Shown one piece after another: positions 1 to 53,115 of a stretch of 64,000 nt of DNA; the stretch's first letter is position 1, and each line of letters begins with the position of its first letter. The DNA comes from Rhodocyclaceae bacterium. GTDB taxonomy: Bacteria; Pseudomonadota; Gammaproteobacteria; Burkholderiales; Rhodocyclaceae. A program made the position numbers and the translations under genes. The stretch covers positions 145,709 through 209,708 of the forward strand of contig NKXK01000024.1 in NCBI GenBank assembly GCA_004379165.1, given 5' to 3'. Under the pieces are notes generated by a model. That model was given only the letters and a program-made list of their open reading frames with translations, made no database searches and was not told where the DNA came from.

Positions 1-607
1 CCTCACCGACCAGAGGGGGCTGTACACCGCCGACCCGCGCAAGGATCCAAACGCGACGCTGATTGAGGAAGCCACTGCCGGCGATGAGTCACTGGAAGCA
101 ATGGCCGGCGGCGCCGGCAGCCGCGTCGGCACCGGCGGCATGATCACCAAGGTCATCGCGGCCAAGCGTGCGGCGCGCAGCGGTGCCCACACCGCCATCG
201 CCAGCGGTCACGAACCCGACCCGATCATCCGCCTCGCAGCCGGGGAGCCGGTGGGCACACTGCTGGTGTCGACCACGCAGCCGCTGGCCGCCCGCAAGCA
301 ATGGCTGGCCGACCACCTGCAACTGGCCGGTCGTCTGGTGCTCGATGCCGGTGCGGTCAAGGCACTTCAGTCGGGCAAAAGCCTGCTGCCGATTGGCGTT
401 ACCGCCATCGAGGGCGACTTCGAGCGCGGCGCGGCGGTCGCCTGCGTTTCACCTGACGGCGCCGAGATCGCCCGCGGCCTGTCCAACTACGGCAGCGGCG
501 AAGCCCGCCTGATTGCCCGCAAGTCGACGCCGGACATCGAAGAACTGCTCGGTTATGTCGACGAGCCGGAAATCATCCACCGCGACAACCTGATTCTGGT
601 CGGCTGA
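1..607 (+). CDS. proB: Glutamate 5-kinase, C-terminal part with PUA domain (5' truncated by window edge)
   Basis: Frame ending at 607 reads [54 protein letters not shown]..., typical of proB kinase C-terminus, followed by a PUA-like region. Confidence 0.93.
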
Positions 608-3620: not shown

Positions 3621-3628
3621 TGATCGTT

Positions 3629-4015
3629 GGAAAGCCGGCCGATAAGCCGGGTTCTGTTCCCCTCTTGCGAGGTTCGGCAATCATTCCTCTAGGCCTGTCG
3701 TCACCGACAGGCTCAAGCAACCTACCCGGAAGCAGCGCGGGCCACGCCTCAGCTTCCCTATTTGGTCTTGCTCCGGATGGGGTTTACCGTGCCGTCCGCC
3801 GTTACCGTGGACGCGGTGAGCTCTTACCTCGCCGTTTCACCCTTACCTGTGCGCCTTACGGCGCCATCGGCGGTCTGTTCTCTGTTGCACTTTCCGTTGC
3901 CTTGGGTCTCGCGACCGTATAGCACCCAGCCGTTAGCTGGCATCCTGCCCAATGGAGCCCGGACTTTCCTCCCGACACTTTCGTGTCCAGCGATTGCCTG
4001 GCCGACTTTCCGGGG
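3629..4015 (-). ncRNA. rnpB: RNase P RNA, bacterial class A
   Basis: Reverse strand reads ggaaagtcggcc...ggaggaaagtccgggctcc...gccggcggacggcacggtaaacccc...gaacccggcttatcggccggctttcc; terminal P1 arms ggaaagtcggcc / ggccggctttcc pair; CR motifs recognisable. Confidence 0.95.
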
Positions 4016-4099
4016 CGGATTATACGCACAGGACCAAGAGAGCACGAGTAAGTTGTTGATATTAATGCGGCAAATGTGATAACATTAACGAAATATTTT

Positions 4100-4188
4100 T
4101 TGGCAAACCTTCGCGAAAGCAAGGGACGCAAAGCTTCCGGGCTGACTGACGACACCTTCGAGTCGTCAAAGCTAGCGGGGTTGCCAGC
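4100..4188 (+). promoter_or_regulatory. Cyclic di-GMP-I riboswitch (GEMM-I)
   Basis: ggcaaacc-ttcgcgaaagcaagggacgcaaagcttccgggctgactgacgacaccttcgagtcgtcaaagctagcgggGTTGCC; matches GEMM-I landmarks (GNRA tetraloop gaaa, GGGACGCAAAGC, TAGCGGGGTTxCC) and P1 closes. Confidence 0.92.
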
Positions 4189-4250
4189 AGTGCATATTGA
4201 CCGCATCGCTGATCGTCTCCGGCCTTCGTCCACGCGCACAGGAGACTTTC

Positions 4251-6542
4251 ATGATCACCACCATTCGCTCGACGAACCAATTCCGCATCAGTTCGTCCGC
4301 ACTCCTTCTGGCTGCGATCATCGGCGCATGGAGCCAGAACAGTACCGCCCAGACCTACGCCCCCTGGCTACGCCAGATCGGCATCACCAACACCATCGAA
4401 TCCGCCGCCGCATGGGGCAAGGGCCAATTACTGGGCGTGGTCGATACCGGTATCAACGTCACGCACCCACAGTTCGCCCCGGGTCAGGTTTCGGCCAGCC
4501 TAAGCAGTTGCGCTGCCGTCACATTCCGTTGCGCCAATGGCGTTGCCGATGACAATGGACACGGCACCGCCGTCGCCAGTATCGCGGCTGGATACCGTCC
4601 CTCGCAATTTGCCAACGTTTCCGCTGGCGGTTACACCACGGTCGCCGGCAACTTCATTGGCGTTGCGCCGGCAGCGAACATCGTTGCCGAAAAGGTACTC
4701 GCTGCATCAGGCAGTGGCTACTCCACCGATGTCGCCAATGGCATTCGCAAAGCAGCCGATGCCGGCGCGGGGGTTATCAATGTTTCGATCACCTACGGCA
4801 ATGACAGCGCTACCGTATCCGCCATCAACTACGCTGCCTCCAAGGGTGCCTTTATCGTTTGGGCTGGTGGCAATAGCGCCCAGAACCTGCTGTCCAACCA
4901 GAATACCGTCGGCTTGACGCAGGCCGCCATTCAGCGCCTCGTATTTGCCGGCTCGGTGAATAGTGCAAACGTCGCCTCCAGCTTCACCAACAAGCCGGGC
5001 AGTGGCAACCTGGTCAGCACCACCAACTCACGTACGACCTATGCCGGTCGTTGGGTGATGGCGCCCGGAGAAGCCATCATCGCTCCCAGCACGACCTATG
5101 GAAATAGCGCTTACATGCTATGGTCCGGCACCTCGATGGCTGCTCCTGTGGTCAGTGGCTCGCTGATGCTGCTCCAGAATGCCTGGCCGATTCTCAAAAC
5201 CCGCGGTACGACGGCAGACTTACTGATCGCCACAAGCACCGACCTTGGCAGCAAGGGCGTGGATAGCACCTACGGCAACGGCCTGGTCAATCTGCAGAAG
5301 GCCTTCACACCGGTGGGCGCGCTAACAGTCACCACTGCCCAAGGGACCAGCCTCGATGTCAATGCACTTACCGGCAGCCTCATTTCCAGCGGCGCTCTCG
5401 GCAGCATGAGCAGCATTCGTAGCAAGCTGGCCAATTACACCGCTTTCGACAGTTACACGAGAAATTTCACCGTCAATCTCTCCGGGCTCATTCAATCTCC
5501 GACAAACAAGGCCAGCCTGAATCCTCTGCCCAGCAATGCCTTCAGTGCGCCCAAAGTGTTGAAATTCCAGAATGGCGAACTTGCAGTTTCGCTGACGGCG
5601 ACCACCGACCCGACAGCAAATCTAGGCCGTTTCGACTATCGTGCCGACCTCGAAACCTCCCCCAGCGTCGGTTACACCTTGTTCACCAACTCGGCCGCAA
5701 GCGTCACCGGGCTCGGGTATGGCGCTTCGTCCGCCTACCCCTTCGCCAAGGCAATGTTCAATGACGAGTTGATTGCGCGCCAGATGCAGGACTTTGACAA
5801 CGCAAGCATCAACAACATCGCTCAAAACGGATATCAGATGAGCTACGGGATGCAGTTCAATCCGGAGATCCGTTTTGCAGCCCACTACTCCGCCACGCCG
5901 ACCGACACCCCTCTCCAGCGCATGAACGCCCCTGCCATGCAGATCAAGGTCGGCGCATCCTATCGGGTCAACCAACGCCTGACGGCAGGCCTGACTTACA
6001 GCAACATGGAAGAGAGCGCTTCATTGCTTGGTGCCGGAAACACAGGCAACAGTCTGCTGTCGTTTGGGCACAATCGAAGCAATGTTGCCGGCTTGAGCCT
6101 GGCCTATCGAGTCGGTCTTAACAGCAGCGTCCTATTCAATGGCGAAATGGCGCAAACCGAGACCGGAGAAGGCAATACCGGCAGCTTGTTCGGCGCCACA
6201 TCCAATGTCCGCGCCCAGGCTTTTGGTGTGACATTCATCCAGCAAAACCTCTGGACAGACAAGGACCAGTTGCTCGCATCGATTCGCCAGCCGCTTCGCG
6301 TCTCTTCAGGGCGAGTCGCCATTGTCAGCGCCGACGTCGATGCCAACGGCGAACCGGTTTATCAGAAGCAGTGGGCGAGTCTGGTTCCCGATGGTCGCGA
6401 AATCGACTTCAGCCTGAGCTATGTCCGGCCTACCGGCAAAACCAGTTCGCTCGCAATGCAAGCCATGTATCAGCGCGATGCCTTGAATATCGCCGGTAAT
6501 AACGCGACACAATTTGGCATGCTCTGGAAGACGGCCTTCTGA
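4251..6542 (+). CDS. Subtilisin-like (S8) serine peptidase with outer-membrane beta-barrel-like C-terminus (autotransporter-like)
   Basis: Catalytic motifs VVDTGI, DDNGHGTAVASIAAG, SGTSMAAPVVSGS; C-terminus ends ...FGMLWKTAF; SD aggag just upstream of ATG 4251. Confidence 0.88.
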   Translation: MITTIRSTNQFRISSSALLLAAIIGAWSQNSTAQTYAPWLRQIGITNTIESAAAWGKGQLLGVVDTGINVTHPQFAPGQVSASLSSCAAVTFRCANGVADDNGHGTAVASIAAGYRPSQFANVSAGGYTTVAGNFIGVAPAANIVAEKVLAASGSGYSTDVANGIRKAADAGAGVINVSITYGNDSATVSAINYAASKGAFIVWAGGNSAQNLLSNQNTVGLTQAAIQRLVFAGSVNSANVASSFTNKPGSGNLVSTTNSRTTYAGRWVMAPGEAIIAPSTTYGNSAYMLWSGTSMAAPVVSGSLMLLQNAWPILKTRGTTADLLIATSTDLGSKGVDSTYGNGLVNLQKAFTPVGALTVTTAQGTSLDVNALTGSLISSGALGSMSSIRSKLANYTAFDSYTRNFTVNLSGLIQSPTNKASLNPLPSNAFSAPKVLKFQNGELAVSLTATTDPTANLGRFDYRADLETSPSVGYTLFTNSAASVTGLGYGASSAYPFAKAMFNDELIARQMQDFDNASINNIAQNGYQMSYGMQFNPEIRFAAHYSATPTDTPLQRMNAPAMQIKVGASYRVNQRLTAGLTYSNMEESASLLGAGNTGNSLLSFGHNRSNVAGLSLAYRVGLNSSVLFNGEMAQTETGEGNTGSLFGATSNVRAQAFGVTFIQQNLWTDKDQLLASIRQPLRVSSGRVAIVSADVDANGEPVYQKQWASLVPDGREIDFSLSYVRPTGKTSSLAMQAMYQRDALNIAGNNATQFGMLWKTAF

Positions 6543-6765: not shown

Positions 6766-7656
6766 ATGGTCCGCCTCCAGTTCAGTATCGATCTCCAGTA
6801 CCAGATCACCCCGCCCGCCGCGGATTTTGTCTTCAACTTCCACGCCGCGCTCACGGCAAGCCAGACTGTGCTTGAAGAGTCGCTGGTCATCGATCAGCAT
6901 GTGCCCACCCGACTGGAGATCGAGCCTGCGACCGGTGCCCGCTTCCTGCGCCTGACGGCCAACCCGGGGCCACTCAATGTCGTATATCGCGCGACCGTCG
7001 ATATCGATCATTTCGCGGCGCCACCCGATGCAATCGCTGAAACGCCCGTAGCCAACCTGCCGCTGTCCGTACTGACCTATATTTACCCGAGCCGCTACTG
7101 CCAGTCAGACCGTCTGGCACAACTGGCCATGCGCGAATTCGGGCATTTACCCAAAGGCTACCGGCGCGTCGAGGCCATTTGCAAATGGGTGAGCAATCAC
7201 GTTGTCTTCAAGAGTGCCAGCAGCAGTTCGACGACCTCGGCGATCGACACGCTGACCGAACGAACCGGTGTCTGCCGTGATTTTGCCCACCTGATGATCG
7301 CCCTCTGTCGGGCGCTGAGCATTCCGGCACGCTTCACCACCGGCATCGATTACGGCGCCGACCCGGCACTTGGTCCGACCGATTTTCACGCTTACGTCGA
7401 AGTCTTCCTCGAACAGCGCTGGTATCTCTTCGACCCGTCCGGCACCGCCATTCCAATGGGTTTCGTGCGTATCGGTACCGGTCGCGACGCCGCCGATGTG
7501 TCCTTTGCAACGATTTTCGGCAGCGTCAGTTCGCCACCACCGGTGATCAGCATCAAGGCCGTGACCGCTGCCGACCGCCCCTGGCAAGAACCGCGGCATC
7601 GCGAAGAAGCCCTATCGAGCGACGCCCTGCCCGGACTTTTTCCGGCAACGCGCTAG
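6766..7656 (+). CDS. Transglutaminase-like family protein
   Basis: Core TERTGVCRDFAHLMIALCRALSIPARFTTGIDYG...DFHAYVEVFLEQRWYLFDPSG (Cys-His-Asp triad). Confidence 0.88.
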   Translation: MVRLQFSIDLQYQITPPAADFVFNFHAALTASQTVLEESLVIDQHVPTRLEIEPATGARFLRLTANPGPLNVVYRATVDIDHFAAPPDAIAETPVANLPLSVLTYIYPSRYCQSDRLAQLAMREFGHLPKGYRRVEAICKWVSNHVVFKSASSSSTTSAIDTLTERTGVCRDFAHLMIALCRALSIPARFTTGIDYGADPALGPTDFHAYVEVFLEQRWYLFDPSGTAIPMGFVRIGTGRDAADVSFATIFGSVSSPPPVISIKAVTAADRPWQEPRHREEALSSDALPGLFPATR

Positions 7657-51831: not shown

Positions 51832-53115
51832 TCAGGCTTCCGAAAGCGTGCCGGCGACGGCAATCCGGTTACGGCCGCCGCGCTTGGCCTCGTACAACGC
51901 CTCGTCGGCAAGCTTCAGCGCTCCTTCCAGCGGCAGGAGGGTGGCATCGGCCAGGCCCATGCTGAAGGTGACGCGAACCAGGCGGCCATCGGGAACACGA
52001 ATCTCGACCCCGGAAAACCGCTCGCGCAGACGTTCTGCCAGACGCAGGGCCTCGTCAATGCCCACTTCCGGAAACAAAAAGGCGAACTCCTCACCGCCAT
52101 AGCGACAGGAGAGATCGGACTGGCGCAGGGTATCGCCGACCAGCGCTGCAAAGGCTTTGAGCACGGCATCTCCGGCCGCATGCCCGTAGGTATCGTTGAG
52201 GCGCTTGAAGTGATCCAGATCGGCCATGCCCACGGTCAACGACCGGCGGTAACGTTGAGCCCGAGCCAGTTCCTGCTCCGCCAGCAGCATGAAATGACGA
52301 CGGTTGGTCAGCCCGGTCAGGCCATCACGGTTGGCCAGCAACTCCAGTTGCTGCCGCGCTGCCTCGTTGGCCACCAGCGAGGCATGCAGTTCGACAATGG
52401 ACTCCTCAACCGCCTGGATTTCAAGCATGTGCGCGGGGGGAAAGGCCGGCGGCGGCTGCTCGACACTGAGTTGCGACAGCTTGCGGTAGATATTCTGCAG
52501 CGGGTGGATCAGCGTCTGCCGGACGAAAAACAAGAACACGCACAGAAACACCGCCTCCAGAAGCACGACTGCAATCAGCTTGTAACGCGCCACCTGCATC
52601 GCCGCATTCACCTCGCGCAGATCGCGGCTGGCGAGGTTTACGCCTTGCACCGAGACATCGTCGACCAGCAGGCTGACCTGAGCACTGAGTTGCCGCCAGG
52701 CCTCGTAGTTGCGCGCAATCGCCCGATCATCGCTGGCGCTTTGCCGCAGCACTTCGGCAAGAAAACGCTCGACCTGACGCGCCAGCTCGGCCGCCGGACG
52801 ATGATCCAAAACGCTGGGATGACTGGCCACCAATTTCGCAACGAACAAGGCCTGCTGCCGCGCCTGCGGACTGGAGACGGCGAACACCCGCTCGCCCTCC
52901 TGCCGCAATTGCTCCAGATTCCGCGACAGGCGCTGGTAGCGGATAATTTCCGGCACCGTATCGTCCTGAAGACGATTGGTCGCGTCGAGTACCTTTTGCT
53001 GATCAAGCCAGATCAACATCACGACGAACCCGAACAGGGCAACAAAAACCACCGCCAACGCTATGAAAGCCCTGCCGGCGCCCAGTCTTCCCGTGATCGC
53101 TGTGCTATCGCTCAC
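51832..53115 (-). CDS. Diguanylate cyclase (GGDEF) with N-terminal periplasmic sensor region
   Basis: CRYGGEEFAFLFPE active-site motif preceded by RQSD I-site; two TM segments. Confidence 0.93.
   Translation of the reverse strand: MSDSTAITGRLGAGRAFIALAVVFVALFGFVVMLIWLDQQKVLDATNRLQDDTVPEIIRYQRLSRNLEQLRQEGERVFAVSSPQARQQALFVAKLVASHPSVLDHRPAAELARQVERFLAEVLRQSASDDRAIARNYEAWRQLSAQVSLLVDDVSVQGVNLASRDLREVNAAMQVARYKLIAVVLLEAVFLCVFLFFVRQTLIHPLQNIYRKLSQLSVEQPPPAFPPAHMLEIQAVEESIVELHASLVANEAARQQLELLANRDGLTGLTNRRHFMLLAEQELARAQRYRRSLTVGMADLDHFKRLNDTYGHAAGDAVLKAFAALVGDTLRQSDLSCRYGGEEFAFLFPEVGIDEALRLAERLRERFSGVEIRVPDGRLVRVTFSMGLADATLLPLEGALKLADEALYEAKRGGRNRIAVAGTLSEA

Follow-up and report, generated by a model that had tools for sequence, protein, structure and literature searches.

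The question raised by this locus is whether a leader RNA that binds c-di-GMP governs a protease displayed at the cell surface and, if so, whether the second messenger raises or lowers the amount of that protease. We analysed a stretch of 64,000 nucleotides from a Rhodocyclaceae bacterium (hereafter the window), for which a preliminary description had placed a GEMM-I leader at 4100-4188. A cmscan search of the whole window upheld the identity of this leader and its hallmarks, and moved its start to 4092. Rfam family RF01051 (c-di-GMP-I, GEMM-I) matches there over its full length (model positions 1-87, plus strand) with an E-value of 8.9e-9 and 58.1 bits, against a gathering cut-off of 35 bits. 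Two Rfam families exceed their cut-offs in the window, namely RNase P RNA and c-di-GMP-I, and RF01051 matched only once in the 3.06 Mb genome, at this same copy (E 9.8e-11). The core motifs GGCAAACC (4102-4109), a GAAA tetraloop, GGGACGCAAAGC and GGGGTTGCC are all found within 4102-4185, with TTGCC of the 3' part of the aptamer at 4181-4185. On a provisional mapping of the Vc2 numbering, G4103 and C4184 would fit the c-di-GMP type and not the cGAMP type. The relevant change for cGAMP-type variants is G20A in Vc2 (PMC6274999).

Transcription probably begins at the aptamer or slightly upstream of it. A consensus scan found one promoter-like site (0.3 expected in shuffles), TTGATA-18-TAACAT with TG before the second hexamer, and transcription starting about 7 nt past it would put the RNA start at the aptamer. 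No terminator-like site was found in 3950-4400. The aptamer ends 62 nt before the ATG, the very gap given in the preliminary description. The RNase P RNA gene (3627-4009, minus strand, 314 bits) points away from the riboswitch gene, at a distance of about 80 bp.

Table 1. Features of the leader and of the protease gene (positions in the window).
Feature	Position	Strand	Basis
Promoter-like site	4056-4085	+	Consensus scan only
c-di-GMP-I (GEMM-I) riboswitch aptamer	4092-4188	+	RF01051, 58.1 bits, cut-off 35
Aptamer core GGGACGCAAAGC; GGGACG (4123-4128) is the proposed alternative partner of the linker strand	4123-4134	+	Sequence; complement enrichment
Linker strand CGUCUCC; GUCUCC (4215-4220) to SD, CGUCUC (4214-4219) to aptamer core	4214-4220	+	Folding and duplex scans
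Shine-Dalgarno (SD) AGGAGAC, hidden in a predicted hairpin (GGAGAC, 4241-4246)	4240-4246	+	Folding
S8 (subtilisin-like) protease, 763 aa, signal-peptide-like N-terminus, barrel-like C-terminal domain	4251-6542	+	
Peptidase_S8 domain, aa 56-344	4416-5282	+	PF00082 125.8 bits, alignment, PDB subtilisin matches
C-terminal domain; helices aa 495-518, 12 strands aa 528-761, F763	5733-6539	+	AlphaFold2

The gene behind the leader has an intact reading frame with an ATG start. Its product had been called an S8 peptidase, and it is one: in addition to the Pfam match, the catalytic residues D65, H104 and S295 and the oxyanion residue N208 are invariant in an alignment with 30 relatives, and subtilisins in the PDB match the protease part both by sequence and by fold (Foldseek). 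The N-terminus MITTIRSTNQFRISSSALLLAAIIGAWSQNSTAQ is signal-peptide-like, as judged by eye. AlphaFold2 with 30 sequences gave a mean pLDDT of 73.8 and a pTM of 0.51 (with 8 sequences the model was poor, pLDDT 46.5); it predicts the subtilisin fold, a poorly predicted linker at about residues 375-470, two helices and 12 strands. The last residue, F763, is invariant among the 30 relatives. This is the layout of a type Va autotransporter (helix, 12-strand barrel, aromatic last residue) as seen in prediction only, and it is AlphaFold2 that supports the beta-barrel-like C-terminus proposed earlier. Neither Autotransporter (PF03797) nor any other Pfam family matched the C-terminal domain, and no PDB chain matched it by sequence; the best 50 Foldseek PDB matches were all subtilisins with no solved barrel among them, a list that is uninformative on the barrel. 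We label the predicted domain autotransporter-like because AlphaFold2 models a barrel for which Pfam and the PDB sequences give no match. The S8 autotransporters EprS and fusolisin share the layout of a subtilase with a C-terminal barrel, but the window protein matches the NCBIfam model of neither. By this model the protease is probably surface-displayed, and the barrel would serve to display its own protease.

The protease gene has a G+C content of 58.2% (70% at third positions), as against 63.3% and 84% in a nearby leuA-like gene, and the barrel family was absent from all four same-genus genomes sampled. As a side reading, these two observations may reflect patchy inheritance or transfer of the protease gene. 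A transglutaminase-like protein (PF01841) is encoded at 6766-7656 on the same strand, directly 3' of the protease gene.

Is the pairing of aptamer and protease conserved? Among 200 genomes of the same family, the aptamer lies upstream of 12 of the 14 genes that combine the S8 domain with the barrel. It stands directly upstream and on the same strand in all eight of the closest full-length genes (that of the window and seven others at 47-70% identity), and it precedes four more distant ones (G024, G044, G085 and G193). The genes without it are G100 and G041, a probable member of the group that is possibly split; a broken gene in G172, with an in-frame TGA and pieces on two contigs, also lacks the aptamer. 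A scan of GTDB genomes provided further homologues. Rfam places the aptamer before those from Rhodocyclus, Dechloromonas and other Azonexaceae, Uliginosibacterium, Accumulibacter, Oryzomicrobium, a Methylophilaceae bin and others, and the distinct leaders of this protease gene family that carry the switch number 19, the window included. Before the homologues tested from Chromobacteriaceae, Magnetococcales bins and Alphaproteobacteria, no trace of the aptamer was seen even at an E-value of 5. Presence and absence of the aptamer require 3 changes on a maximum-likelihood protein tree, compared with 9.6 in shuffles. The neighbourhoods of the riboswitch-protease unit differ, with rnpB adjoining it only in the window and tRNA genes lying upstream in L063-L065. 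Covariance model, conservation across species and structure prediction agree with the earlier proposal of a riboswitch ahead of a surface S8 peptidase. The copy in the window scores below those before close relatives (58.1 against 63.9-77 bits), which, together with the lack of the barrel family in the sampled same-genus genomes, could be taken to mean that it is a relic whose ligand response has been lost. We regard this as highly improbable, given a full-length match well above the cut-off, intact core motifs and an intact protease reading frame.

How, then, might the leader act on the gene? The SD sequence AGGAGA (4240-4245) lies 5 nt before the ATG, and folding places it inside a hairpin in which the linker strand GUCUCC pairs with GGAGAC (Table 1). 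Pairing of the SD or the AUG recurs in most of the other leaders, with other sequences on both strands. Helices picked by eye from the folds illustrate this, and are not a test of it: Rhodocyclus leaders have an SD/AUG hairpin of 9-11 bp, L069 pairs UGCCCUUU with AAAGGGCA, L070 UUCUCCGG with CCGGAGAA and L007 CGAUUUCC with GGAAAUCG, in L075 GUCAUC/GAUGGU covers the AUG, and in L008 the automatically chosen SD is unpaired and the adjoining GAAAUCG paired. The test itself, complementarity to the SD upstream of it relative to dinucleotide shuffles, gave a Fisher p of 1.5e-9 for the 19 leaders and of 4.7e-7 for 13 representatives, p-values that are optimistic, since the representatives too are related to one another. 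In the window by itself the SD duplex reaches a p of 0.033, and the predicted SD pairing of 0.83 is not clearly above the 0.67 of shuffles. The overall folding energy of the leader, considered as a further signal, was no lower than in shuffles (z 0.09) and was set aside as uninformative. On the sequences compared here, a linker hairpin that would hide the SD or the start codon with clade-specific sequences appears to be a new feature.

The minimum-energy fold of the window leader hides the SD even without ligand; an OFF switch would therefore have to be kinetic. The same fold is what an ON switch requires, in which ligand binding would disfavor the SD hairpin and c-di-GMP would induce the protease, for example for adhesin maturation while a biofilm is being built. 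Vc1 of V. cholerae and Bc2 of B. thuringiensis are ON switches (PMC4744006, PMC6366702). The two class I switches of V. cholerae respond oppositely, and not via termination (PMC6366702), so that the direction cannot be borrowed from relatives. Nevertheless, we found no pairing by means of which the folded aptamer could release the SD from its hairpin, and the complement that we did find in the linkers targets the aptamer core, a segment that should be inaccessible once ligand is bound. We consequently consider an ON switch unlikely, if deserving of attention.

That complement was detected by comparison with shuffled linkers. Strands able to pair with the aptamer core GGGGACGCAAAGC are over-represented in the linkers, with p 4e-8 for the 19 leaders and 9e-6 for the 13 representatives, compared with 0.11 for a reversed-core control; the relatedness of the sequences makes these values optimistic as well. 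By reference to the Vc2 structure, we take this core to lie in the ligand pocket. The complementary strand has three recurrent forms: the Rhodocyclus group has GCGUCUCC, the Accumulibacter group GCUUUGCAUCCC, and L075, L077 and L083, whose own core is GGCGGCGC, have GCGCCGCC. In the window alone the complement spans 6 bp (p 0.20), and the enrichment, a candidate feature that is new here, is weak in the window itself. As a general trait of all GEMM-I leaders of the family the core complement was rejected as weak (p 0.003 for 90 leaders, control 0.32). The strand that complements the core, or one adjoining it, also pairs with the SD or the AUG; anti-SD and anti-core strands overlap by 88 nt where 55 nt are expected (p 0.10). 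Strict mutual exclusion of the two strands, positive in sum, was not significant at that value and was not retained.

Given these complementarities, the reading we favor, and consider rather probable, is that the class I riboswitch in this leader is a translational OFF switch, through which high c-di-GMP leads to less protease. At low c-di-GMP, the linker strand CGUCUCC would invade the aptamer core at GGGACG and leave the SD free, such that the protease could be produced, exported and then presented on the surface through its own barrel. At high c-di-GMP, ligand would lock the core, the linker strand would pair with the SD instead (GUCUCC/GGAGAC) and translation would stop. Surface proteolysis would then fall as cells settle and rise once c-di-GMP drops. 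Computation shows the aptamer, the S8 domain, their conserved association and the SD/AUG hairpin across relatives, and we infer the ligand response, the alternative pairing, the OFF direction and the function of the barrel; that the protease clips surface or matrix proteins is the least secure step of the model. A constitutive SD hairpin, with the aptamer acting via, for instance, the promoter, mRNA stability or Rho-dependent termination, would fit both the non-significant overlap of the competing strands and the report that Vc1 mechanisms beyond intrinsic termination are unresolved (PMC4744006). It would leave unaccounted for a hairpin kept across clades despite changed sequence on both strands, as well as linkers enriched in core complement, and we judge it improbable.

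A translational OFF switch at this locus would have its nearest precedent in C. difficile, whose functional class I switches are OFF switches (PMC6200980, PMC6366702). There, the switch in front of zmpI turns down an adhesin-cleaving protease, whose surface-protein substrates are themselves induced by c-di-GMP (PMC6200980, PMC6366702). The arrangement of ZmpI (PPEP-1) and its switch Cdi-1-12 is that of the window, where a class I aptamer immediately precedes the gene of an exported protease; however, the Gram-positive enzyme is a zinc protease and the window protein an S8 protease with a predicted barrel. Transcription termination is the mechanism described for the class I switches of C. difficile (PMC6366702), whereas the window leader has no terminator-like site in the region scanned. 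Processing of adhesins or matrix, as already suggested in the preliminary description, is a plausible guess because of this analogy with ZmpI. The LapD/LapG system offers a second comparison. If the OFF reading is right, c-di-GMP in both cases restrains a protease that releases a surface protein, but LapG is a periplasmic cysteine protease (Peptidase_C93) held by a protein receptor and the window has an S8 gene under an RNA switch. Relative to RF01051 riboswitches at large, the aptamer here is no different, being full-length, above cut-off and part of a coding-strand 5' leader; the additions are the target gene, S8 with barrel, and the translational platform. A search of the open literature turned up no report of a c-di-GMP riboswitch in front of an S8 or autotransporter gene.

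Should the OFF direction hold, Gram-negative bacteria, among them Accumulibacter, Dechloromonas and Rhodocyclus, would couple c-di-GMP to surface proteolysis by RNA alone, converging on the logic of ZmpI and LapG. Furthermore, the mode of action of class I switches in proteobacteria, reported as unclear for Vc1, where no anti-SD was seen (PMC4744006), may be easy to study in this simple leader. The leader and protease together may also provide a handle for finding the protease substrate.

The source genome is likely to use c-di-GMP signalling, as it contains 29 GGDEF matches. One of these proteins is encoded in the window at 51832-53115 (minus strand), and here the preliminary description of a GGEEF diguanylate cyclase with an I-site agrees with a PF00990 match of 139.2 bits and an I-site-like RQSD five residues before GGEEF. 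Because there are 29 such matches in the genome, its presence in the window says little, and a special link between it and the switch is not supported. LapG (PF06035, Peptidase_C93) is absent from this genome, but several genomes with the S8 gene do encode it, which leaves unsupported the idea that the S8 protease replaces a missing LapG. The TPS-type adhesin family PF05860 had no match in the genome, and control genomes were equally silent, making this result uninformative.

Which other genes stand behind such aptamers? We sampled 86 GEMM-I loci in the bacterial family, two of them loci of the S8 and barrel gene, and picked downstream genes mechanically, so that all target counts are minimum counts. 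DUF1631 genes are the commonest target, at no fewer than 18 of the 86 loci (L036, L140, L153, L172 and others), and HDOD genes follow at least 8. S8 genes account for at least 7 loci and M12 reprolysin-like genes for at least about 6; the M12 reprolysin-like or M11 metalloproteases, unrelated to S8, are at L038, L044, L045, L051, L159, L179 and L180. At no fewer than 7 loci (L039, L041, L046, L057, L144, L181 and L185) the aptamer precedes a small exported protein that carries a WxCW motif and matches no Pfam family. Since unrelated protease families recur behind GEMM-I, exported proteases are a recurrent target of class I switches in this family. It is tempting to go further and to propose, tentatively and with less than even confidence, a family-wide regulon of exported proteases under class I switches, comprising three mutually unrelated kinds (S8 joined to the barrel, S8 carrying a prodomain and Ig repeats, and M12 reprolysin-like), an RNA-level counterpart of LapG. 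In such a regulon one linker strand would read either the aptamer core or the SD, and barrel and riboswitch would form a module with exchangeable passengers, as in L011 with its PilZ-fused non-protease.

Two other loci carry the barrel family behind a GEMM-I aptamer. L011 (986-3411, on contig 104 of G087) had been a candidate S8 homologue; lacking an S8 domain, it was rejected and removed from the S8 counts. Its GEMM-I aptamer is followed by one frame that runs from PilZ, a c-di-GMP-binding type of domain, through a signal-peptide-like stretch and a non-protease passenger to the barrel family of the window protein; either the passenger has been swapped, or two genes share the frame. In L158 (contig 217 of G150), a GEMM-I aptamer precedes a 203-aa frame whose end corresponds to the final 65 residues of this barrel family, either a remnant or a short relative.
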